Source: a virus
IMG/VR virus record: IMGVR_UViG_3300025131_000422
Location: 1 to 24,172 of that record
Reading direction: 5' to 3' (one strand)
Length of the DNA: 24,172 nt
Shown one piece after another: positions 12,118 to 22,621 of the stretch. Every line of letters begins with the position of its first letter. The first letter of the stretch is position 1. The notes under the pieces were generated by a model. It did no database searches. It saw only the letters and a list, made by a program, of their open reading frames with translations, and was not told the origin of the DNA. A program made the translations under genes and the position numbers.

Positions 12118-12987
12118 ATGAGTAATAGTTTAGATGCGGTTTTAGCCCAATACGAAAAAAACAAACAAAGTGGTGGTTCAACAAAATCACAAATGACATC
12201 AGAAGAAAGAATGAAACAATATCTTTCACTAATGTTACCACAAGGAACCAAACAAGGAGAAAAAAGAATTAGAATTATACCAACAACAGACGGTACATCA
12301 CCATTTAAAGAAGTATATTTCCATAACACACAAGTACAAGGAAGGTGGATAAAACTTTATGACCCAGGAAAAGATAATGAAGGAAAACCATCAGGAGAAA
12401 GAAGTCCTTTAAATGAAGTAGAAGAAGCTTTAAGATTAGCGGGTGATGTACAATCAAAAGAATTAGCACGCTCTTATCGTTCACAAAAATTTTATATTGT
12501 AAAAGTTATTGATAGAGATAATGAAGAAGATGGTGTAAAATTTTGGAGATTTAAACATAATTGGAGAGGAGATGGACCAATTGATAAAATTATCCCAATA
12601 TGGAGAAATAAAGGGGATGTAACTGATATTAATGAAGGAAGAGACTTAATTCTTGTTCTTCAAAAAGTTCCATTAGCAGGTGGTAGAGGTGAATACACAA
12701 CAGTAGCTTCTGTTATGTACGAAGACCCAGGAAAATTATCTGAAGACGAAGGTAAAGTAAAAGAATGGACAGAAGATGAAAGAACATGGAAAGATGTTTA
12801 TTCACAAAAACCAGTTGAATACTTGGAAGCAATATCCAAAGGATTAGACCCAGTATGGGATTCTGAACTTAAAAAATATGTTTATGATGACCCGACAGCG
12901 GTTAAAAATACTACCACAACAAGTACATTAGGTGGTACTACTGACCCACAAGCAAACGACCCACAAGACGAAGACTTACCATTTTAA
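12118..12987 (+). CDS. 32: gp32-like single-stranded DNA-binding protein
   Basis: This 289-residue protein binds ssDNA during phage replication and recombination. Support comes from the pattern of the gp32 family in large myoviruses: an N-terminal basic/Gln/Ser segment, then a central OB-fold-like region rich in aromatic and basic residues (RIRIIPTTDGTSPFKEVYFH, SQKFYIVKVIDRDNEEDG, FWRFKHNWRGDG). A flexible Thr-rich linker follows at about 265-275, then the acidic tip DEDLPF. It lies directly before uvsX, its usual partner. Unlike T4 gp32, it contains no cysteine, so the zinc site is absent. The ending resembles the DDDIPF-type tip of bacterial SSB, which recruits partner proteins. It starts at the first ATG after an A-rich leader. 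Confidence 0.85.
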   Translation: MSNSLDAVLAQYEKNKQSGGSTKSQMTSEERMKQYLSLMLPQGTKQGEKRIRIIPTTDGTSPFKEVYFHNTQVQGRWIKLYDPGKDNEGKPSGERSPLNEVEEALRLAGDVQSKELARSYRSQKFYIVKVIDRDNEEDGVKFWRFKHNWRGDGPIDKIIPIWRNKGDVTDINEGRDLILVLQKVPLAGGRGEYTTVASVMYEDPGKLSEDEGKVKEWTEDERTWKDVYSQKPVEYLEAISKGLDPVWDSELKKYVYDDPTAVKNTTTTSTLGGTTDPQANDPQDEDLPF

Positions 12988-12997
12988 TTATAGGATT

Positions 12998-14002
12998 ATG
13001 GGATTGAAAAAAAGAACATTTTCTGATTTGAAAGATAAATTTTCTAAAAAGGCTAAATTTAAACAAGAAAGATTTTTTGATTTAGGTGAGGCCTTTCTTG
13101 ATGCAACAGGTTTACCAGGTCCTGCTATGGGCCATTTACAAATGTTTTTGGGTCATTCTGATACAGGGAAAACTACAGCTTTAATTAAAACAGCAGTAGA
13201 TGCACAGAAAAAAGGAATTCTTCCTGTTTTAATTATCACAGAACAAAAATGGGATTTCTCATATGCTAAATTATTGGGTTTAGACTGTAAAGAAGTTGTA
13301 GATAAAACAACAGGTGAAATTGATTGGGATGGATTCTTTTTATTTAATAATGATTTTGAATATATAGAACAAATAACGGATTATATAAATCATTTATTAG
13401 ATGCACAACAAAAAGGTGAAATACCATATGATTTATTATTTATGTGGGATTCCGTAGGGTCTATACCATGTAAAATGACTTATGATGGTAAAGGAGGTAA
13501 AATGCATAACGCAGCAACTTTAGCCGATAAAATAGGTATGGGATTGAATCAAAGAATAGGAAAATCTAGAAGAGAAGACTCCAACTATACCAATACATTA
13601 GTAGTAATAAACCAACCATGGGTAGAATTACCAGATAACCCATTTGGACAACCAAAAATTAAAGCTAAAGGAGGAGAATCACTTTGGCTAAACTCAACGT
13701 TAGTATTTAGATTTGGTAACCAAAAAAATGCTGGCACAACACACATTTCTGCAGTAAAAGAAAAAAGGAAAGTAAAATTTGCTACCAGAACTAAAATAAC
13801 TATAATGAAAAATCATGTGAATGGTTTAGGTTATGAGGACGGTAAAATTTTAATTACCCCACACGGATTTTTAGCTGGAAGAGAATCCACTGAAGAAAAG
13901 AAATCAATTGAAAAATATAAACAAGAATACGCCACCTTTTGGTCCGACCAATTAGGAACTGGTGGTGAGTTCGATTTAAAAATAGATAAAGAAAATGACT
14001 AA
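12998..14002 (+). CDS. uvsX: UvsX, RecA-like recombinase
   Basis: This 334-residue RecA-family recombinase forms filaments on ssDNA and drives strand exchange, supporting recombination-dependent replication with the gp32-like protein upstream. Visible elements are Walker A GHSDTGKT at 52-59 (K58, T59), a probable catalytic Glu at E82 in IITEQKWD, Walker B LLFMWD ending at D151, and the VINQPW segment at 203-208. The frame is open further upstream, to an ATG at 12932 inside the ssDNA-binding gene, but that extension is just the other frame of its C-terminus. The ATG at 12998, 10 bases after that gene stops, gives the natural N-terminus. It overlaps the prolyl isomerase gene by 8 bases (ATGACTAA). 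Confidence 0.92.
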   Translation: MGLKKRTFSDLKDKFSKKAKFKQERFFDLGEAFLDATGLPGPAMGHLQMFLGHSDTGKTTALIKTAVDAQKKGILPVLIITEQKWDFSYAKLLGLDCKEVVDKTTGEIDWDGFFLFNNDFEYIEQITDYINHLLDAQQKGEIPYDLLFMWDSVGSIPCKMTYDGKGGKMHNAATLADKIGMGLNQRIGKSRREDSNYTNTLVVINQPWVELPDNPFGQPKIKAKGGESLWLNSTLVFRFGNQKNAGTTHISAVKEKRKVKFATRTKITIMKNHVNGLGYEDGKILITPHGFLAGRESTEEKKSIEKYKQEYATFWSDQLGTGGEFDLKIDKEND

Positions 14003-14432
14003 ATTAAAAACAGGAGACAAAGTAAAAGTACATTATATTGGTACCCTTCTTAAAGATGGTTCACAATTTGATAATTCTCGAGATAGAGGAGAGGGCTTAG
14101 AATTTGCTATTGATAGCGGCCAATTACTTAAAGGATTTAATGATGCAGTAAAGACTTTAGATGTGGGGGGTACAGCTACAGTAGAATTAAAAGCATCAGA
14201 AGCTTACGGTACATACATCACCGAAGCAGTAATAACAGTTCAAAAAAGTGAATTCCCAAAAGATATGAAATATGACCTTAACGGGTTCATACAAGGTAAA
14301 GATAACGAAGGAAGACCAGTTCAAGGACAAGTTATTAAAATAGAAGAAAATAGTGTAAATTTAGATATGAATCATCCTCTAGCTGGAGAAGATTTAAAAT
14401 TCGAAATTGAATTATTAGAAGTAGTAGAGTAA
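13995..14432 (+). CDS. FKBP-type peptidyl-prolyl isomerase, SlyD-like
   Basis: This 145-residue protein should catalyse cis-trans isomerisation of prolyl bonds and probably act as a chaperone. The FKBP half reads VKVHYIGTLLKDGSQFDNSR, then GQLLKGFNDAVKTLDVGG and EAYG. A chaperone-type insert follows at about residues 72-125, with FPKDMKYDLNGF. The chain closes with NHPLAGEDLKFEIELLEV, the hallmark ending of SlyD-like proteins. Binding-pocket aromatics are present (Y14, F25-D26, Tyr of AYG, Phe of LKFEIEL). The His-rich metal-binding tail of E. coli SlyD is missing. No signal peptide is present, so it acts in the cytoplasm. Its start overlaps uvsX by 8 bases, which places it firmly in the replication operon; a role in folding or assembling a replication protein is inference. 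Confidence 0.9.
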   Translation: MTKLKTGDKVKVHYIGTLLKDGSQFDNSRDRGEGLEFAIDSGQLLKGFNDAVKTLDVGGTATVELKASEAYGTYITEAVITVQKSEFPKDMKYDLNGFIQGKDNEGRPVQGQVIKIEENSVNLDMNHPLAGEDLKFEIELLEVVE

Positions 14433-14439
14433 AAAAATT

Positions 14440-14455
14440 GTTTAACCCTTTAAAC
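14440..14455 (+). repeat. Short inverted repeat before the 5' nuclease gene
   Basis: GTTTAA (14440-14445) and TTAAAC (14450-14455) flank CCCT in the 30-base gap between the prolyl isomerase and nuclease genes. It lies 8 bases before the TTG start. It could be a weak RNA hairpin affecting initiation, but six mostly A/T pairs are easily found by chance. Confidence 0.3.
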
Positions 14456-14462
14456 GTGTGTC

Positions 14463-15470
14463 TTGACAAGAACATTATTAGTTGACGGAAATTCCTTATT
14501 AAATACTGGTTTTCACGGTATAAAAAATATGTATAATGGTACAGACCATATAGGTGGGCTCTACCATTTTCTTAATGCCCTTAGAAAACATATAGACGGC
14601 TATTTAATCACCAAGATAGTAGTATTTTGGGATGGAGAAGAAAACACACATCCACGACTAAAATTATACCCTGATTATAAGTTAAATAGAAGATTAAAAA
14701 AGAAATCTGAAGATGACTTACAATCTTACGCTAAACAACAATTACGTATACAAGAGTATCTAGAAGAACTTTATGTGAGACAGTCAACTTTTAAGTTATG
14801 TGAAGCAGATGATTGCATAGCCTATTATTGTGAAAAATCCCAAGAGGAAGAAATTATAATTCTTACATCTGACAGAGACTTATTACAATTAATATCTAAT
14901 AATGTGTCCTTACACATTATTTCACTAAATAAGTTATTTAAATCAGGTGATAAAGTACCGTTAAATGGGGTATATATCCCATCAAATAATGTTAGAGTAG
15001 TTAAAACTATTTGTGGTGACTCTTCCGATAATATAGATGGTATAAAAATGGTAGGGATAAAATCATTAGTAAAAATAAAACCAGAGTTATTGGAAGAAAA
15101 AGTAACCTTAGATGATATAATAAAAACAATAAAGTTAAAAGATAAAATTACGAATAAGGAAAAAAATATTATAGAAGGAATAACTAAAAAAGAACAAAAA
15201 AATGAGTCAACACTAGAAATTAATTATAATATTATAGGTGTTGGAAAACAATTTTTAACCAAAGAAGCGATAAAAGGAATAAAAGACCTATCAAAAAAAG
15301 CGATAGACCCAGAAGGCAGACATTGGAAAAACGCTTTAGACTTGATGATGTCAGATGGAATTCTTAATATTTTACCTAAGAAAGATGATGCATGGGTAGA
15401 TTTTGTAAGACCATTTTTAAGATTAACAAGAATAGAAAAAGATTTTTATAAAAATAAAAAAGATGAATAA
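14463..15470 (+). CDS. 5'-3' exonuclease / RNase H (FEN family, T4 Rnh-like)
   Basis: This 335-residue FEN-family nuclease would remove RNA primers and flap ends during lagging-strand synthesis. The metal-binding acidic residues stand in the expected order: D8 in LLVDGNSL, D57 in VFWDGE, E114/D116/D117 in CEADD, D137/D139 in TSDRD, and D186/D189 in GDSSDN. A helix-turn-helix segment (GIKMVGIKSL) follows. Basic bridge-region residues lie at LYPDYKLNRR (about 68-77). The start must be TTG at 14463: an in-frame TAA lies at 14451, no ATG or GTG lies between, and the next Met would remove the first catalytic Asp. It overlaps the 150-residue gene by 8 bases (ATGAATAA). The C-terminal ~120 residues are Lys-rich, resembling the DNA-binding lobe of T4 RNase H. 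Confidence 0.85.
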   Translation: MTRTLLVDGNSLLNTGFHGIKNMYNGTDHIGGLYHFLNALRKHIDGYLITKIVVFWDGEENTHPRLKLYPDYKLNRRLKKKSEDDLQSYAKQQLRIQEYLEELYVRQSTFKLCEADDCIAYYCEKSQEEEIIILTSDRDLLQLISNNVSLHIISLNKLFKSGDKVPLNGVYIPSNNVRVVKTICGDSSDNIDGIKMVGIKSLVKIKPELLEEKVTLDDIIKTIKLKDKITNKEKNIIEGITKKEQKNESTLEINYNIIGVGKQFLTKEAIKGIKDLSKKAIDPEGRHWKNALDLMMSDGILNILPKKDDAWVDFVRPFLRLTRIEKDFYKNKKDE

Positions 15471-15915
15471 AATGAAACAAAAAATAGATAACACACAAAA
15501 ATGTGAATTTGTATTAAAATTAGAAAATAATATAGTATGCCAAAGGTTCTTTTCAGTAAGGAATTTTAATAATTTAGCGACATATTCTTTAGACTTACAT
15601 TACACCATAAGTGACATTGTAGATGACATAATTAGAGATTTAAAACTTAAAACATTATTTTTATTTGATAGGGATTATAAAGAAAGTCCTAATGAACTAC
15701 AACAAGAATCGGAACATTTTACGATAACATTGAAAAAAGGTAATCACATAATTTACGATAGAATTATACGTGCCGATGTCTACCCCCCAAAAGTAAGATA
15801 CACAGTAGATATAAGACCACAAATATCTTATATTTTAAGAGAGCTAACCCAAGTACTGTCACAGAAAAAAATTGTTACAAACTACCAAGATTATGATTTA
15901 ATTGTCAACCACTAA
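15463..15915 (+). CDS. Conserved-looking small protein of unknown function in the replication operon
   Basis: I do not recognise this 150-residue protein. It has alternating beta-like and helical stretches (FVLKLENNIVCQRFF, DIVDDIIRDLK, FTITLKKGNHIIYDRII) and many charged residues. No nuclease, ATPase or zinc motif is visible (two Cys only). It starts inside the nuclease gene with the 8-base overlap ATGAATAA; a second ATG at 15472, just after the nuclease stop, is an alternative that shortens it by three residues. It sits between the 5' nuclease and the replicative helicase, so a replisome accessory role such as loading factor is possible, but nothing in the sequence shows it. Confidence 0.7.
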   Translation: MNKMKQKIDNTQKCEFVLKLENNIVCQRFFSVRNFNNLATYSLDLHYTISDIVDDIIRDLKLKTLFLFDRDYKESPNELQQESEHFTITLKKGNHIIYDRIIRADVYPPKVRYTVDIRPQISYILRELTQVLSQKKIVTNYQDYDLIVNH

Positions 15916-15917
15916 TG

Positions 15918-15934
15918 TATTTATTATAAAAGAA
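15918..15934 (+). promoter_or_regulatory. Promoter-like motif upstream of the helicase gene
   Basis: The bases TATTTATTATAAAAGAA are identical over all 17 positions to those at 97-113 and end 8 bases before the helicase ATG at 15943. They fill most of the 27-base gap after the 150-residue gene. Their presence before a replication gene as well as structural genes means that, if this is a promoter, it is not restricted to virion genes. Confidence 0.5.
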
Positions 15935-15942
15935 ATTAAGAT

Positions 15943-17322
15943 ATGAGAGACAATAAAAATTTTGGTTACCTAGGATATAATTTCCAACTTAAACTATTAA
16001 ATTTAATAATAACAGATAATACATTTTTTCAATCAATAATTGATGCAATATTACCTAAATATTTTGATAACCAGTATTTTCGATTAGTAATGCAACTAAT
16101 TAAAGAATATTATGAAAAATATCAAATAGCACCGTCATTTGATGCTTTAGACCAACTTACTAGAATAGAAATTAGTTCAGAAATGGCTAGAAAAAATATA
16201 TTTGATATGTTAAAAGATATTAAAGAAGTTTCTTTTGAAGACCATTTATTTATTAAAGAAAAATCTATTAAATTTTGTAAACAACAAGAGTTAAAAAAGG
16301 CAATCCGAAAGGTGGAAACGATAATGGAAAAAGGTGATTTTGAAAGTTATGATAAATGTGAGGAGTATATTCGTGACGCTATTAAGATTGGGGATGGAGA
16401 TATAGGTAGTTTTGAGATTTTTACTGAACTTGAAAAATTACTTGAAGAGGATTATAGACACCCTCTACCGACAGGAATAGATGGTTTAGATAATATTTTA
16501 AATGGTGGACTAGCAAAAGGAGAGATTGGTGTTGTATTAGCCCCTACAGGGGTAGGAAAAACTACAATGTTAACTCGTTTCGCAAATACTGTATTTAATA
16601 TGGGATATAATGTCTTACAAATATTTTTTGAAGATAACCCAAAGATAATCCAAAGAAAACATTTTACATGTTGGACTGGTATCCCTAATGATGAATTAAG
16701 TAATCATAAGGAAACAGTATTGGATAAAGCTGATGAAATGAAAAAAACTGGTGGCAAGTTAATATTAAAAAAATTACCATCTGACCAAATGACCATGTTA
16801 CAAATTAAAAATCAGATAAGAAAAATAATATCTGAAGGAAATAAATTAGATATTGTATTAATAGATTATATTGATTGTATATTAACGGACCGTCATTTTG
16901 ATGATGAATGGAAAGGTGAAGGTTCTACTATGAGAAAATTTGAAGCAATGTGTAACGAATTAAATTTAGTAGGATGGACAGCGACCCAAGGAAACAGAAC
17001 TTCTATATCTTCGGATGTAGTAACAACTGATATGATGGGAGGGTCTATTAAAAAGGCACAAGTAGGACATGTAATAATATCAGTGGCAAAAACATTGCAA
17101 CAAAAAGAAATGGGACTCGCTACCATAGCCATAGTAAAATCTAGATTAGGTAAAGACGGTATTATTTTTGAAAATTGCAAATTTGATAATAGTACGTTAG
17201 AAATAGATACAGAAACTACACAAACATTCCTAGGTTTTGAGAAAGAAAAAACCGATAGAAATAGAGAAAGGGTTGCTCAAGCTCTACAAAGAAGGCAACA
17301 AGTAATAAATAAAAATAATTAA
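15943..17322 (+). CDS. 41: Replicative DNA helicase, gp41/DnaB-like
   Basis: This 459-residue protein is a RecA-fold hexameric helicase that unwinds the fork. The first ~170 residues form a helical N-terminal domain like that of gp41/DnaB. The ATPase domain shows PLPTGIDGLDNILNGGLAKG leading into Walker A APTGVGKTT (200-208, K206), a Glu at E230 in IFFEDN, Walker B IVLIDYID (D308), a sensor Gln at Q349 in TATQGNR, and the basic finger KSRLGKDG (K399, R401). Each is where the DnaB superfamily (family 4) expects it. Length is close to T4 gp41 (475). It is preceded by its own promoter-like motif and ends in tandem stops (TAATAA). The reductase gene follows 13 bases later. No primase gene lies in the window. 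Confidence 0.9.
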   Translation: MRDNKNFGYLGYNFQLKLLNLIITDNTFFQSIIDAILPKYFDNQYFRLVMQLIKEYYEKYQIAPSFDALDQLTRIEISSEMARKNIFDMLKDIKEVSFEDHLFIKEKSIKFCKQQELKKAIRKVETIMEKGDFESYDKCEEYIRDAIKIGDGDIGSFEIFTELEKLLEEDYRHPLPTGIDGLDNILNGGLAKGEIGVVLAPTGVGKTTMLTRFANTVFNMGYNVLQIFFEDNPKIIQRKHFTCWTGIPNDELSNHKETVLDKADEMKKTGGKLILKKLPSDQMTMLQIKNQIRKIISEGNKLDIVLIDYIDCILTDRHFDDEWKGEGSTMRKFEAMCNELNLVGWTATQGNRTSISSDVVTTDMMGGSIKKAQVGHVIISVAKTLQQKEMGLATIAIVKSRLGKDGIIFENCKFDNSTLEIDTETTQTFLGFEKEKTDRNRERVAQALQRRQQVINKNN

Positions 17323-17335
17323 TAAAAATAAAAAT

Positions 17336-19255
17336 ATGGAAGTATCGAATAAGATTCTATCGGATATAACTGTTTATATGAAATATGCAAAATATATTGC
17401 ACAATTAAATAGAAGAGAGACTTGGGAAGAATTAGTAACTAGGAATAAAAATATGCATATGAAAAAATATCCTCATATTAAGGAGGAGATTGAAGAAAAA
17501 TATAAAATGGTGTACGATAAAAAAGTACTTCCATCAATGAGAAGTATGCAATTTGGAGGAAAACCAATTGAAATATCTCCAAATAGAATATATAATTGTG
17601 CATATTTACCGGTTGACCATATTGATTCATTTAGTGAAACAATGTTTTTATTATTAGGAGGGACGGGAGTAGGATACTCTGTTCAAAAACATCATGTAGC
17701 TAAATTACCACCAATACAACACCCCTACCCAAAAAGAAAAAAGAGATTTCTAGTTGGAGATTCAATTGAAGGATGGGCTGATTCAATTAAAGTTCTTATG
17801 AAATCTTATATGAATGGTGGCGGAAGTAGAATTGAATTCGATTATTCAGACATTAGACCAAAAGGTGCTAGATTAATAACCTCAGGAGGTAAAGCTCCAG
17901 GACCACAACCACTTAAGGAATGTTTGGTTAAAATAGAAGGTATTTTATACCATAAAGAAAATGGAGAACAATTAACAACATTAGAGGTTCATGATATTGT
18001 TTGCTATATAGCAGATGCAGTATTGGCGGGTGGTATTCGTAGAGCTGCATTAATTAGTTTGTTTAGTGCAGATGATGATTCTATGATATCTTGTAAAACA
18101 GGTAAATGGTGGGAATTAAATGCACAAAGAGGTAGAGCAAATAATTCTGCCTGTTTAATGAGACATAAAATAACAAAGAAGTTCTTTATGGATTTATGGA
18201 AACGTGTAGAACTTTCAGGAGCAGGAGAACCCGGAATTTATCTAAATAATGATAAAGATTGGGGAACTAATCCTTGTTGTGAAATTGCTCTTCGACCTTA
18301 TCAATTCTGTAATTTATGTGAAGTTAATGTATCTAATATTGAATCACAAGAAGATTTAAATGACCGTGTAAAAGCAGCAGCATTTATTGGAACACTACAA
18401 GCTGGGTACACCGCATTTCATTATTTAAGAGAAATATGGCAAGAAACCACAGAGAAGGATGCATTGATAGGAGTATCAATGACAGGTATCGGTTCAGGTA
18501 AAGTATTAAAATATGATATGAAAAAAGCTGCAAGTTTAGTTAAAAGAGAAAATACTAGAGTAGCAAAACTAATTGGAATAAATAGAGCAGCAAGAACAAC
18601 AACAGTAAAACCTGCAGGAACAACTTCTTTAGCTTTAGGCACATCATCTGGAATTCATGCATGGCATAATGATTATTATATTCGTAGAGTTAGAGTAGGT
18701 AAAAATGAAGCAATATATCACTATCTAAGGGCCAATCATTCAGAATTGTTAGAAGATGATTATTTTAGACCACATGACACAGCTGTAATTATCATCCCAC
18801 AAAAAGCACCAAAAGGGGCTATTATGAGAACCGAGTCCCCGTTCCAACTACTAGACAGGGTTAAAAAAGTTGCTAGTGAATGGGTTAGACCAGGACATAG
18901 AAAAGGTTCAAATAGTCACAACGTTTCAGCAACAATATCATTAAAAGAAAATGAATGGGATTTAGCTGGAGAATGGATGTGGGAAAATAGAAAATTTTAT
19001 AATGGTTTATCAGTTCTTCCTTATGATGGTGGGTCGTACATTCAACCACCATTTGAAGATTCTACTAAAGAAATTTATGAAGATATGATGAAAACTCTTA
19101 CTGAAATAGATTTATCTAAAGTAGTTGAATTAGACGATAATACAGATTTATCAGGTGAATTAGCATGTGCAGGAGGAACTTGTGAAATAGATGTAGATTT
19201 AAAATCTATAAGTTTAAATGGAAATGGTAAAACAAAAGAAGTTGAATTAACATAG
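17336..19255 (+). CDS. nrdJ: Class II (adenosylcobalamin-dependent) ribonucleotide reductase
   Basis: This 639-residue enzyme reduces ribonucleotides to deoxyribonucleotides using a cobalamin-generated thiyl radical, supplying precursors for phage DNA. It resembles the monomeric Lactobacillus RTPR type. The active-site signature NPCCEI (312-317) places the radical cysteine at C314 and the general acid at E316; C325 lies 11 residues on, and C88 in YNCAYLP is its expected redox partner. The C-terminal shuttle pair is C611/C616. FDYSDIRPKGARLITSGGKA and VKPAGTTSLALGTSSGIH are family hallmarks. It is about 100 residues shorter than RTPR (739), with most of the loss before C314, where RTPR carries its effector-binding insertion. 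There is an extra ~23-residue tail after C616. The stop is TAG. Confidence 0.92.
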   Translation: MEVSNKILSDITVYMKYAKYIAQLNRRETWEELVTRNKNMHMKKYPHIKEEIEEKYKMVYDKKVLPSMRSMQFGGKPIEISPNRIYNCAYLPVDHIDSFSETMFLLLGGTGVGYSVQKHHVAKLPPIQHPYPKRKKRFLVGDSIEGWADSIKVLMKSYMNGGGSRIEFDYSDIRPKGARLITSGGKAPGPQPLKECLVKIEGILYHKENGEQLTTLEVHDIVCYIADAVLAGGIRRAALISLFSADDDSMISCKTGKWWELNAQRGRANNSACLMRHKITKKFFMDLWKRVELSGAGEPGIYLNNDKDWGTNPCCEIALRPYQFCNLCEVNVSNIESQEDLNDRVKAAAFIGTLQAGYTAFHYLREIWQETTEKDALIGVSMTGIGSGKVLKYDMKKAASLVKRENTRVAKLIGINRAARTTTVKPAGTTSLALGTSSGIHAWHNDYYIRRVRVGKNEAIYHYLRANHSELLEDDYFRPHDTAVIIIPQKAPKGAIMRTESPFQLLDRVKKVASEWVRPGHRKGSNSHNVSATISLKENEWDLAGEWMWENRKFYNGLSVLPYDGGSYIQPPFEDSTKEIYEDMMKTLTEIDLSKVVELDDNTDLSGELACAGGTCEIDVDLKSISLNGNGKTKEVELT

Positions 19256-19259
19256 AATG

Positions 19260-20243
19260 TTAAGGATTCAAGATACTATCTTTAATAATTTTAAAATCTG
19301 TTATCTTATCTTCTAAGTATAACATAACGTTAGAATCACACTCATCAGGTGTAGGTGGACAACATGGTTTATATGGTGGATTGAAAGAATTCGTTATGTG
19401 GTGATTTAAATGTCCACAATCAGGATATTTTTGTACTGGGTCAAATGTTATGGAAATTGCATATGGACCAAATAAACTAGTAGGGTCAACATGCTCCAAA
19501 TGCCAACACAGTGGCATTGGGTTTGGTACCCCACCAACATATACCACATAAGCTCTAAATGCTTGTTGGTAATTATTCACACCTAATTGACCAGGTCCAG
19601 TACCTGTAATTGCTTGCCAAACACTTGTATACATAAGTGGGTCCAGCTGGTACCTTACACTAGGGTCACAACAATTAACAATCATGTTAGGTGCAAATGA
19701 TGGAGGGACATGTCCCGTACAATCCTCACAATTAGATGATATCCAAGCTGTATATGTATAAGTTGGGTTGCCATATACACCAAGGGAACCTATAGGAAGA
19801 CCACCAGGATTTATAATATTATTATACCGACATCCGTTTGGGTCACCTGGTAATGGGGGAACTGTAATAAAAACATCTGAACACTGTCCACCATAACCAT
19901 GATTATAACAAGAAGTACAAGTTCCGACATTAAAGGTTGCTTCATCTACTATTTCCAATAATTTATAACATAAAATATAACTATGTGGTACTAGTGGTTG
20001 GACGATTTCCACACTTACCCAGTCACCTATACTTGGGAAAATCCCATTCAATGGACCATATCCTCCTCCTTGCCAAGAGTCTTGTGGTGAACCTTCACCG
20101 AACAAATAATGACACTCCCATATACCGGAACCTAACTGATTAGGTTCACATAGCAAACCCTGTTGCATATAAGTACACCAGATATAAGCTCTATATCCTA
20201 CTCCTGGTATTAATGTTTTTACTTGGTCGAATGTTATTGCCAT
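19260..20243 (-). CDS. Cysteine-rich protein of unknown function, isolated on the minus strand
   Basis: This 327-residue protein is not recognised. It has 17 Cys (23, 32, 44, 92, 109, 112, 121, 138, 172, 175, 191, 192, 246, 276, 294, 295, 302) plus many Pro, Gly, Tyr and Trp. Pairs include C109-x2-C112, C172-x2-C175, adjacent CC at 191-192 and CC at 294-295. Two stretches look related: LCYKLLEIVD (91-100) and LCWHLEHVD (245-253), each followed by a further cysteine-bearing segment, suggesting an internal duplication. No signal peptide or membrane segment is visible. Metal-bound knuckles or a disulphide-stabilised virion protein both fit. It is the only minus-strand gene, converges on nrdJ with a 4-base gap, and diverges from the gp25-like gene with its own promoter-like motif, a layout typical of inserted single-gene cargo. 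Confidence 0.75.
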   Translation of the reverse strand: MAITFDQVKTLIPGVGYRAYIWCTYMQQGLLCEPNQLGSGIWECHYLFGEGSPQDSWQGGGYGPLNGIFPSIGDWVSVEIVQPLVPHSYILCYKLLEIVDEATFNVGTCTSCYNHGYGGQCSDVFITVPPLPGDPNGCRYNNIINPGGLPIGSLGVYGNPTYTYTAWISSNCEDCTGHVPPSFAPNMIVNCCDPSVRYQLDPLMYTSVWQAITGTGPGQLGVNNYQQAFRAYVVYVGGVPNPMPLCWHLEHVDPTSLFGPYAISITFDPVQKYPDCGHLNHHITNSFNPPYKPCCPPTPDECDSNVMLYLEDKITDFKIIKDSILNP

Positions 20244-20313: not shown

Positions 20314-20781
20314 ATGCCCACACAAAGATACGGTATAACATTTCCATTTGTAGATAGCTCCGAAGGGTTTTTTCTCGGGCTAAATACGAATACAGAGAGT
20401 GAGGTAAGGTCTAATCTCATACATTTGATACTTACTCGTAAAGGTTCTAGATATTTTTTACCTGATTTTGGTACTAATTTAACTACTTATGTGTTTGAAC
20501 AAATGGACACAACCACTAAATTAGCTATTGATGGTGAGATACGTGAAGCGGTCAATAAGTTTATTCCTAGTTTGATAATTAATAGTGTAGAAGTAAAAAC
20601 ATTAGAAGATTTAAAAGCAGAAGAAAAAATTAATGAACAAACAACTGATTTATCTATGGACGACGGAAATATGAGTTTTGTAGGAGAAGCTCAAAGGGAT
20701 TATTCTATAAGGGTAAGAATTGATTATACTGCTGGAGACGGTGTATTTGAGACTAAAGATTTTGTTATAATAGATTTATAA
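20314..20781 (+). CDS. 25: Baseplate wedge protein, gp25-like
   Basis: This 155-residue protein belongs to the gp25/GpW-gp25 family, the wedge component that contacts the sheath and starts its assembly in contractile tails. The core signature is clear: a short N-terminal strand (YGITFPFVDS), then EVRSNLIHLILTRKGSRYFLPDFGTNL at about residues 30-56, containing the family's conserved helix, Arg-Lys-Gly turn and P-x-FG motif, then a helix ending in an amphipathic C-terminal sheet (YSIRVRIDYTAGDGVFETKD). An acidic insert at about 100-122 is longer than in minimal members. Its stop is one base from the gp6-like start, so the two wedge genes are a tight operon, as in many contractile systems. Confidence 0.9.
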   Translation: MPTQRYGITFPFVDSSEGFFLGLNTNTESEVRSNLIHLILTRKGSRYFLPDFGTNLTTYVFEQMDTTTKLAIDGEIREAVNKFIPSLIINSVEVKTLEDLKAEEKINEQTTDLSMDDGNMSFVGEAQRDYSIRVRIDYTAGDGVFETKDFVIIDL

Positions 20782-20782
20782 A

Positions 20783-22621
20783 ATGGCAGAGAAAAAAATA
20801 GCATATACCGAAAGAGATTTCTTGGGTATTAGAAATGAACTTTTAAGATTAACAAATACCTATTATCCGGATTTAATTAAAAATGCTAATGACGCTTCTA
20901 TATACTCAGTATTTTTAGACCTCAACGCTGCAGTAGCAGATAACCTAAACTTTCAGATAGATAGAACTTTCCAAGAAACTGTACTACAATATGCTCAAGA
21001 AAGAAGTTCTTTATATAATATCGCTAAAACATATGGGTTAAAGATTCCTGGTAATAGACCGTCAGTTGCATTAGTAAATTTATCTATTATAGTTCCGGTT
21101 CTAGGTGATAAAGAAGATTTTAAATATCTTGGTAAAATAAGAGCGGGTGCACGATTCCGAGGAGCGGGTCAAATATTTGAGTTAATAACAGATTGTGATT
21201 TTTCATCTCAGTATAGTGCAGAGGGAATACCAAATGAAACTATAATACCTAATTATGACGCAAATGGAATTATTCAAAATTATACTATAATAAAAAAAGA
21301 AGTTGTCGTTAATGGAATAACCAAGGTATTCAAAAAAGAAATAAATGATGCCGACAGCAAACCATTTTTTAAAATATTCTTACCAGAAAAAAATGTAATT
21401 GGAGTTACCAGTCTTATTCAAAAAGAGGGATTAGGTTATCAGACAATACCTGCTAATACAGAGTTTATATCTAGAACAGCCAATAAATGGTATGAAGTGG
21501 AAGCTTTAGCACAGAATGAAGTATTCATAGAAGACCCTTCGATACCAGCAGATGCACCAGGCATTAAAGTAGGTAAACATATAACAGTACCTCAAAGATT
21601 TATTACTGAATTTACACCGGAAGGGTTTTTTAATTTAACTTTTGGAAGTGGTAATCAAACCTCCCAAGATTTATTAGACGGGTTTGCATCAAAAGGAGTA
21701 AAGTTAAATATGTCCCAATTTATGAATAATATAGCATTAGGTAACACAGTTAAGGCTAATACTACACTATTCATTCAATATAGAATTGGGGGCGGAAAAT
21801 CTGCAAATATAGGAGCGGGGGCAATAACTACAGTAGGAAATATAGATTTTGTTGTGGCAGGACCAAGTCAACAAATAAATCAAACAGTAAAAAATAGTTT
21901 AGCAGTAACAAATACGACACCAGCTATAGGAGGAGCAAATCAAATGACACCTGAAGAGATAAGAAATTATATATCTTATAATTTTGCAGCCCAAAATAGA
22001 GGAGTTACTATAAATGATTATGTGTCTAAATTAAGAACAATGCCCGCAATCTTTGGAGCACCTGCTAAAGTAGGTGTTACAGAAATAGAAAATAAAGTTA
22101 ATTTAAATATTTTATCATATACACCAGATGGTAAATTAACTTCTTTAGTAAGTGAAACTCTTAAAAGGAATATTGCAAATTATTTATCTAATTATAGAAT
22201 GTTAAATGACTATATTTTAGTTGGAGAAGCAAGAGTAATAGATATTGCTTTATCTATAGATTTAATTTTAGAAGAAGCAGCAAATGAAGGCAGTATAATA
22301 ACTAATATAATTACACAAATTAGTGATTATTTTGCGGTAGACAAATTGGAATTAGGAGAAGATTTAACATTAGGAAGGTTAGTAAGTTTTATTATGACAC
22401 AACCAGGAGTATTAAATCTTGTGAATATAGAAGTCTTTAATAAAGTAGGTGGAAATTACTCTCAATCGATGTCTACACAACCATATATAAATGCAACAAC
22501 CAAGCAAATTGGGTTGATAGATGATACCATTTATGCACAACCTAATGAAATATTACAGATTCGTTATCCCGACAAAGATATTTCTATAAGATTTAAAAAA
22601 CCAAGCAAACCAGTATTTTAA
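20783..22621 (+). CDS. 6: Baseplate wedge protein, gp6-like (baseplate J family)
   Basis: This 612-residue protein is the gp6/BaseplateJ-type wedge subunit, which forms the inner ring around the hub. The N-terminus carries the typical entry (YTERDFLGIRNELLRLTNTY, then DLNAAVADNLNFQIDRTFQE at about residues 48-67). The middle is beta-rich. The family core at about 385-460 reads TPEEIRNYISYNFAAQNRGV and TINDYVSKLRTMP, then VNLNILSYTPDGKL. Length is close to T4 gp6 (660). It begins one base after the gp25-like stop and is followed by a 118-base gap with regulatory-looking sequence. The gp25-gp6 adjacency is a well-known marker of contractile baseplates. Confidence 0.9.
   Translation: MAEKKIAYTERDFLGIRNELLRLTNTYYPDLIKNANDASIYSVFLDLNAAVADNLNFQIDRTFQETVLQYAQERSSLYNIAKTYGLKIPGNRPSVALVNLSIIVPVLGDKEDFKYLGKIRAGARFRGAGQIFELITDCDFSSQYSAEGIPNETIIPNYDANGIIQNYTIIKKEVVVNGITKVFKKEINDADSKPFFKIFLPEKNVIGVTSLIQKEGLGYQTIPANTEFISRTANKWYEVEALAQNEVFIEDPSIPADAPGIKVGKHITVPQRFITEFTPEGFFNLTFGSGNQTSQDLLDGFASKGVKLNMSQFMNNIALGNTVKANTTLFIQYRIGGGKSANIGAGAITTVGNIDFVVAGPSQQINQTVKNSLAVTNTTPAIGGANQMTPEEIRNYISYNFAAQNRGVTINDYVSKLRTMPAIFGAPAKVGVTEIENKVNLNILSYTPDGKLTSLVSETLKRNIANYLSNYRMLNDYILVGEARVIDIALSIDLILEEAANEGSIITNIITQISDYFAVDKLELGEDLTLGRLVSFIMTQPGVLNLVNIEVFNKVGGNYSQSMSTQPYINATTKQIGLIDDTIYAQPNEILQIRYPDKDISIRFKKPSKPVF

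Follow-up and report, generated by a model that had tools for sequence, protein, structure and literature searches.

A SlyD-like FKBP gene within a phage replication operon

The window analysed here (24,172 nucleotides, the whole stretch) is a 24-kb IMG/VR virus fragment in which large hub- or tail-like genes are followed by gp79, gp264, gp32, uvsX, an FKBP gene, a 5' nuclease gene, gp150 and a gene for a DnaB-like helicase. 3' of the helicase lie a B12-type ribonucleotide reductase gene, an ORF on the minus strand and the baseplate wedge genes gp25 and gp6/J. The central features are the following:

12118-12987 (+): gp32-like single-stranded DNA-binding protein (Pfam gp32, 3.5e-15)
12998-14002 (+): uvsX, divergent RecA-family recombinase (PHROG UvsX, 5e-16; 43% to the recombinase of Flavobacterium phage immuto)
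13995-14002 (+): overlap of the uvsX stop and the FKBP start, 8 nt, ATGACTAA
13995-14432 (+): SlyD-like FKBP prolyl isomerase/chaperone, 145 aa (ORF, Pfam FKBP_C, AlphaFold2 model, invariant active site, dN/dS)
14001-14222 (+): first part of the FKBP (prolyl isomerase) domain, residues ~3-76, with Y14, F25, D26, R31, F37, F48 and Y71 (alignment to FKBP12)
14223-14375 (+): insert-in-flap (IF) chaperone domain, residues ~77-127 (SlyD/SlpA structure match; alignment)
14376-14429 (+): last strand of the FKBP domain with F136, and the end of the chain without a metal-binding tail
14438-14453 (+): motif TTGTTTAACCCTTTAA (TTGTTTAACCYTTTAA-like) between the FKBP stop and the 5' nuclease start, kept in relatives
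14463-15470 (+): 5' nuclease (5'-3' exonuclease), TTG start (Pfam 5_3_exonuc_N, 6e-28; present in relatives)
15463-15915 (+): gp150, conserved operon protein with no assigned family, in relatives with and without FKBP (AlphaFold2 pLDDT 87)
15943-17322 (+): DnaB/gp41-like replicative helicase (PHROG DnaB-like helicase, 6e-60)

The FKBP ORF runs from an ATG start to a TAA stop. That it is embedded between uvsX and the 5' nuclease and overlaps uvsX by 8 bases, as the original prediction had it, proved exact, and the overlap measures exactly 8 nt in 53 of the 64 uvsX-FKBP junctions counted. Homology places the start of uvsX at 12998; in the ORF list the frame opens further upstream, at a GTG (12932). 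The best named NCBIfam match of the 5' nuclease is DNA polymerase I. The motif that precedes the nuclease gene occurs only once within the window and is found in nearly all FKBP-carrying phages, with GTTTAACC and GTTGAACC variants in many FKBP-less phages, and could possibly act as a promoter or a translational operator. Profile searches of Pfam, PHROG and NCBIfam gave no family match for gp150, and one close match to it is an uncharacterised Caudovirales protein (A0A6J5L9R9).

The operon (12118-17322) is preceded by very large tail/hub-like genes and followed by baseplate wedge genes (20314-22621), an arrangement that is kept in relatives. It is closed by an adenosylcobalamin-type (class II, B12) ribonucleotide reductase (17336-19255), in place of which immuto encodes alpha and beta subunits separately. 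On the opposite strand, 19260-20243 holds a Cys-rich ORF of 327 aa, for which we found no NCBIfam match and no counterpart among the relatives examined.

The FKBP has two domains and a conserved active site

Pfam FKBP_C matches the ORF with E=3e-19 and 69.5 bits (cut-off 21.1). An AlphaFold2 model built with 22 homologues (pLDDT 90.9) aligned in a structure search end to end with FKBP12-IF(SlpA), FKBP12-IF(SlyD) and Thermus SlyD (TM 0.84-0.89), and E. coli SlpA was a further match over the whole length. Because the model matches SlyD and SlpA structures from end to end, we conclude that the IF chaperone insert (residues ~77-127) is present, and the FKBP domain plus chaperone insert anticipated at 13995-14432 were right in both coordinates and domains. 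The protein thus combines an FKBP_C domain, the active-site residues and an insert-in-flap domain, as SlyD-like two-domain proteins do. With the SlyD/SlpA (FkpB) family (E. coli, Thermus; Methanothermococcus FKBP17) it shares the whole-length fold, the catalytic pocket and the NHPLAG flap signature, but it differs in being phage-encoded, in forming a lineage of its own with a best cellular identity of 46-47%, and in having no metal-binding tail. It scored below the curated NCBIfam cut-offs for both FkpB (PRK15095; 58.9 versus 125 bits needed) and SlyD (PRK10737; 46.2 versus 174 bits needed), and on these profile scores is placed in the same superfamily as FkpB and SlyD rather than among those named equivalogs.

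The chain stops at residue 145 and lacks the His/Cys-rich C-terminal metal-binding tail of E. coli SlyD, as had been pointed out; since none of the 74 closest cellular homologues has such a tail either, its absence is not unusual. The FKBP of the window carries one extra Leu compared with its relatives (L18/L19, in an in-frame CTT repeat).

Across 64 distinct phage FKBPs, the residues aligned with Y26, F36, D37, A81, Y82 and F99 of FKBP12 are invariant (64/64), the W59 position is always Phe (64/64), as in cellular relatives, and the insert domain is conserved as well. The dN/dS ratio of the FKBP gene is ~0.22, with values of 0.036 for uvsX, 0.16 for the 5' nuclease and 0.23 for gp150, which points to purifying selection on the FKBP at a level similar to that on the neighbouring 5' nuclease. 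This ratio, the retention of the ORF in more than 100 contig loci and the invariant active-site residues argue that the gene is real and not a chance reading frame. The type of protein is ordinary; what is new is that phages repeatedly carry it among their genes for DNA replication and recombination.

The position next to uvsX is old and, among the carriers in the phage family, without exception

The FKBP carriers are a group of large marine phages. With the FKBP as query against IMG/VR, the order uvsX-FKBP-5'nuclease was found in every related contig that holds both flanks, and with UvsX as query it was found at 124 loci (overlapping fetches of one contig counted) encoding 64 distinct FKBP proteins. 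At 42 further IMG/VR loci, and in immuto, uvsX lies directly next to the 5' nuclease gene. Exactly one FKBP is present in each of ten FKBP-carrying contigs of 72-211 kb, and none was found in the FKBP-less contigs searched or in the complete immuto genome; sister phages without FKBP carry a UvsX of 74-85% identity. Presence of the FKBP is clustered on the UvsX tree, with ~4 changes as against 25 for shuffled labels, which suggests one old gain and few losses and not a recent capture. In addition, FKBP distances track those of uvsX (r=0.75) and of the 5' nuclease (r=0.86). The adjacency of uvsX and FKBP, whose recurrence in other large phages had been left to be checked, therefore has no exception among the carriers of this family (IMG/VR contigs) and is old. 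A random location of the gene and a very recent capture, the outcomes that would have spoken against the prediction, were looked for within the family and not found, and random placement was rejected, since no carrier has the gene anywhere but between uvsX and the 5' nuclease.

By UvsX, the nearest cultured phages are Flavobacterium phages 'immuto' (43%), and from this kinship only, a Bacteroidota host may be proposed. A search for contigs of these phages in Bacteroidota genomes, run with no positive control, matched 0 of 395 sampled genomes.

Phage FKBPs form a lineage of their own in several gene contexts

When the first uvsX-linked FKBPs were placed in a tree with cellular homologues of many phyla, they grouped as one lineage (support 100/95), and the FKBPs of two huge phages and of a faecal contig branched outside it; the cellular sample of this tree consists of pattern-matched loci, and its alignment has few columns. 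The most divergent FKBP members then served as seeds for a further search that brought in wider phage groups, and in the widened set all phage contexts (A to E) fall into one phage clade (support 99/92) apart from the sampled cellular FKBPs. The supported phage lineage and a cellular identity of at most 46-47% led us to reject recent capture from a host.

Context A is uvsX-FKBP-5'nuclease, and its two subclades may represent one insertion or two. Context B has the order gp32-FKBP-uvsX-5'nuclease-DnaB, to which some members add small genes, and its UvsX is a different, more RecA-like one (Pfam RecA, 1e-34 to 1e-36). In context C the FKBP is flanked by genes for a RuvC-like resolvase and for DnaG primase, in context D it adjoins a phage HSP70, and in context E it lies among various accessory genes, such as those for a carbamoyltransferase and a PP-loop protein. 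Contexts A, B and C are thus replication and recombination operons, and D is a chaperone neighbourhood; the contexts do not come from random sampling, and we therefore give no enrichment statistic for them. At locus L316 (2096-4423) and similar loci, the phage HSP70 gene (DnaK, Pfam 1e-253) lies directly upstream of the FKBP of the same lineage.

SlyD-type FKBPs also occur in huge bS21-encoding phages (LR745206, LR756502), but these sit on a separate branch of the tree and have no homologue of the window uvsX within 10 kb. No bS21 was found in the FKBP-carrying contigs studied here, and membership in the bS21 phages was accordingly rejected. A search with the FKBP of LR745206 found no relatives. 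Bacteroidetes bS21 phages, a different phage group, transcribe an FKBP isomerase gene at a level that ranks within their top 100 genes (PMC9723584). The viral structure library BFVD gave no match to the FKBP fold at E <= 0.001, nor are FKBPs of the SlyD type mentioned in a review covering 224 jumbo phages (PMC7824862), so that phage-encoded proteins of this type appear to be almost undescribed.

A probable role in the folding of phage proteins

We believe that the FKBP is probably a general folding helper of the phage that is expressed together with the replication and recombination genes, with RecA-fold and other such proteins as plausible, non-exclusive clients. On this view the gp32-uvsX-FKBP-5'nuclease-gp150-helicase operon would give rise, by translation coupled to that of UvsX, to a catalytically competent SlyD-type helper of the phage FKBP lineage. 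The FKBP domain of this helper would speed prolyl cis/trans isomerisation and the insert domain would hold partly folded chains, so that more of the phage proteins made at the replication and recombination stage would fold correctly. Isomerase and holdase activity are implied by the conservation of the active site and by the presence of the chaperone insert, and translation alongside UvsX by the overlap, which is usual at these junctions. The likeliest clients would be RecA-fold and other replication and recombination proteins encoded around the FKBP. E. coli without six cytosolic isomerases shows aggregation of RecA, RecB, DnaE, GyrA and RuvB, and co-purification of RecA with PpiB is seen mainly if the active site of PpiB is intact (PMC7353009); by analogy, RecA-family and replication proteins are credible clients of the phage FKBP. 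A general role is also favoured by distant phages, which place the gene beside HSP70 or accessory genes. Against this reading it may be said that related phages do without the gene, that the conserved UvsX prolines hardly change with its presence, that a shared operon may mean only shared timing and that some distant members lie in accessory gene regions.

A narrower role, in which the FKBP is a dedicated partner of UvsX (or of the 5' nuclease or gp32) that controls folding or filament assembly as a true recombination accessory factor, seems doubtful to us, although it fits the strict adjacency and the usual 8-nt overlap, the position of the lineage just before uvsX elsewhere, so that two arrangements keep FKBP and uvsX together, and the co-inheritance seen in the distances that track uvsX and the 5' nuclease. 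The UvsX proteins of the sister phages remain 74-85% identical without an FKBP and immuto likewise has none, which indicates that UvsX does not need it; UvsX also evolves far more slowly (dN/dS 0.036 versus 0.22), and the FKBP lineage occurs away from uvsX as well. Moreover, no proline of UvsX separates carriers from secondary losers, none does so convincingly in the 5' nuclease, gp32 or the helicase, and the conserved prolines of UvsX hardly differ between phages that have the FKBP and phages that lack it (8 of 9 the same); a client proline tracking FKBP loss in these four proteins was therefore rejected. It is conceivable, if on the whole improbable, that a prolyl isomerase/chaperone has by now become a dedicated part of phage replication and recombination modules and that assembly of a RecA-like filament or of the replisome depends on it. 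Such a dependence might be why the FKBP is kept by the recombinase in two arrangements and by a resolvase and a primase in another, an explanation that we consider rather unlikely. We prefer the general helper to a dedicated UvsX partner because close relatives lack the FKBP and the UvsX prolines are nearly unchanged.

To our knowledge, phage T4 has no FKBP, and the original statement that none belongs to its replication set is true for FKBPs as such; however, T4 has a chaperone gene, gene 40, directly after uvsX, in the order uvsX-40-41 and with an overlap of 8 nt (ATGAATAA; T4 uvsX-40: L280 4050-5562). The resemblance to the phage FKBP lies in this position, with gene 40 preceding the helicase gene 41. 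Gene 40 encodes a portal-assembly (head-vertex) chaperone; the portal protein gp20, which depends on gp40, forms crosslinks with trigger factor, and trigger factor is also a prolyl isomerase (PMC9958956). T4 gp40 matches PF11113 (Phage_head_chap)/phrog_999, whereas the FKBP matches FKBP_C and not those profiles, and neither FKBP nor gp150 found support as a gp40 homologue. No gp40 homologue was found in the FKBP-carrying contigs searched, in FKBP-less relatives or in immuto, and since gp40 is missing in carriers and non-carriers alike, gp40 and FKBP are a positional parallel and not a replacement. That the FKBP serves head or tail assembly despite its place in a replication operon, as gene 40 does in T4, is thus very unlikely: the same 8-nt overlap in T4, the gp20-trigger factor crosslink, the lack of gp40 in the carriers and the baseplate genes that flank the operon (gp25 and gp6/J follow) would agree with it, but gp40 is equally absent where there is no FKBP to replace it, the two families are unrelated, 8-nt gene overlaps are common in compact genomes, and the RuvC-DnaG context involves no head genes. 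Least probable in our judgement is an action on a host protein, for example by taking the place of host SlyD or trigger factor or by competing with them, with the operon only setting the timing. Phage lysis protein E does use host SlyD (the solved complex 8g01 was among the structure matches) and conservation within the phage lineage fits a constant host target, but no such target is indicated, the gene is repeatedly placed beside phage replication genes, and the hosts can be assigned only tentatively.

The general folding role retains part of the earlier proposal of a folding or assembly function for a replication protein: the adjacency is recurrent and old and is joined by two further replication or recombination settings. 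The part that was weakened is a tie to a single such protein, as the FKBP is not needed for UvsX, no proline tracks it, and HSP70 and accessory contexts occur. The takeover of a host prolyl switch, also suggested at first, may hold but gained no support. A phage FKBP lineage tied to recombination genes offers a concrete, testable case of a virus with its own folding catalyst for DNA-replication proteins.

A candidate phage origin for an ocean RecA group

The RecA branch known as 'Unknown 1' has in the past been discussed as possibly stemming from a fourth domain of life. The window UvsX is very distant from that of T4, to which it has no significant blastp match, and its similarity to E. coli RecA is only weak. 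The genes that adjoin uvsX in this phage family are gp32 (SSB), FKBP or, in FKBP-less members, the 5' nuclease gene. A literature match for uvsX with FKBP is Wu et al. 2011 (PMC3060911), in which the 'Unknown 1' RecA subfamily of the Global Ocean Sampling has SSB, an FKBP-type isomerase and a DNA polymerase I-like gene as neighbours. A later study placed this group as the most basal of the RecA groups (PMC3637515). Because its three reported neighbour types are the gene types that adjoin uvsX here, a comparison of neighbours and not of sequences, 'Unknown 1' is likely to be this phage recombinase, and the operon offers a candidate phage origin for this orphan RecA branch.
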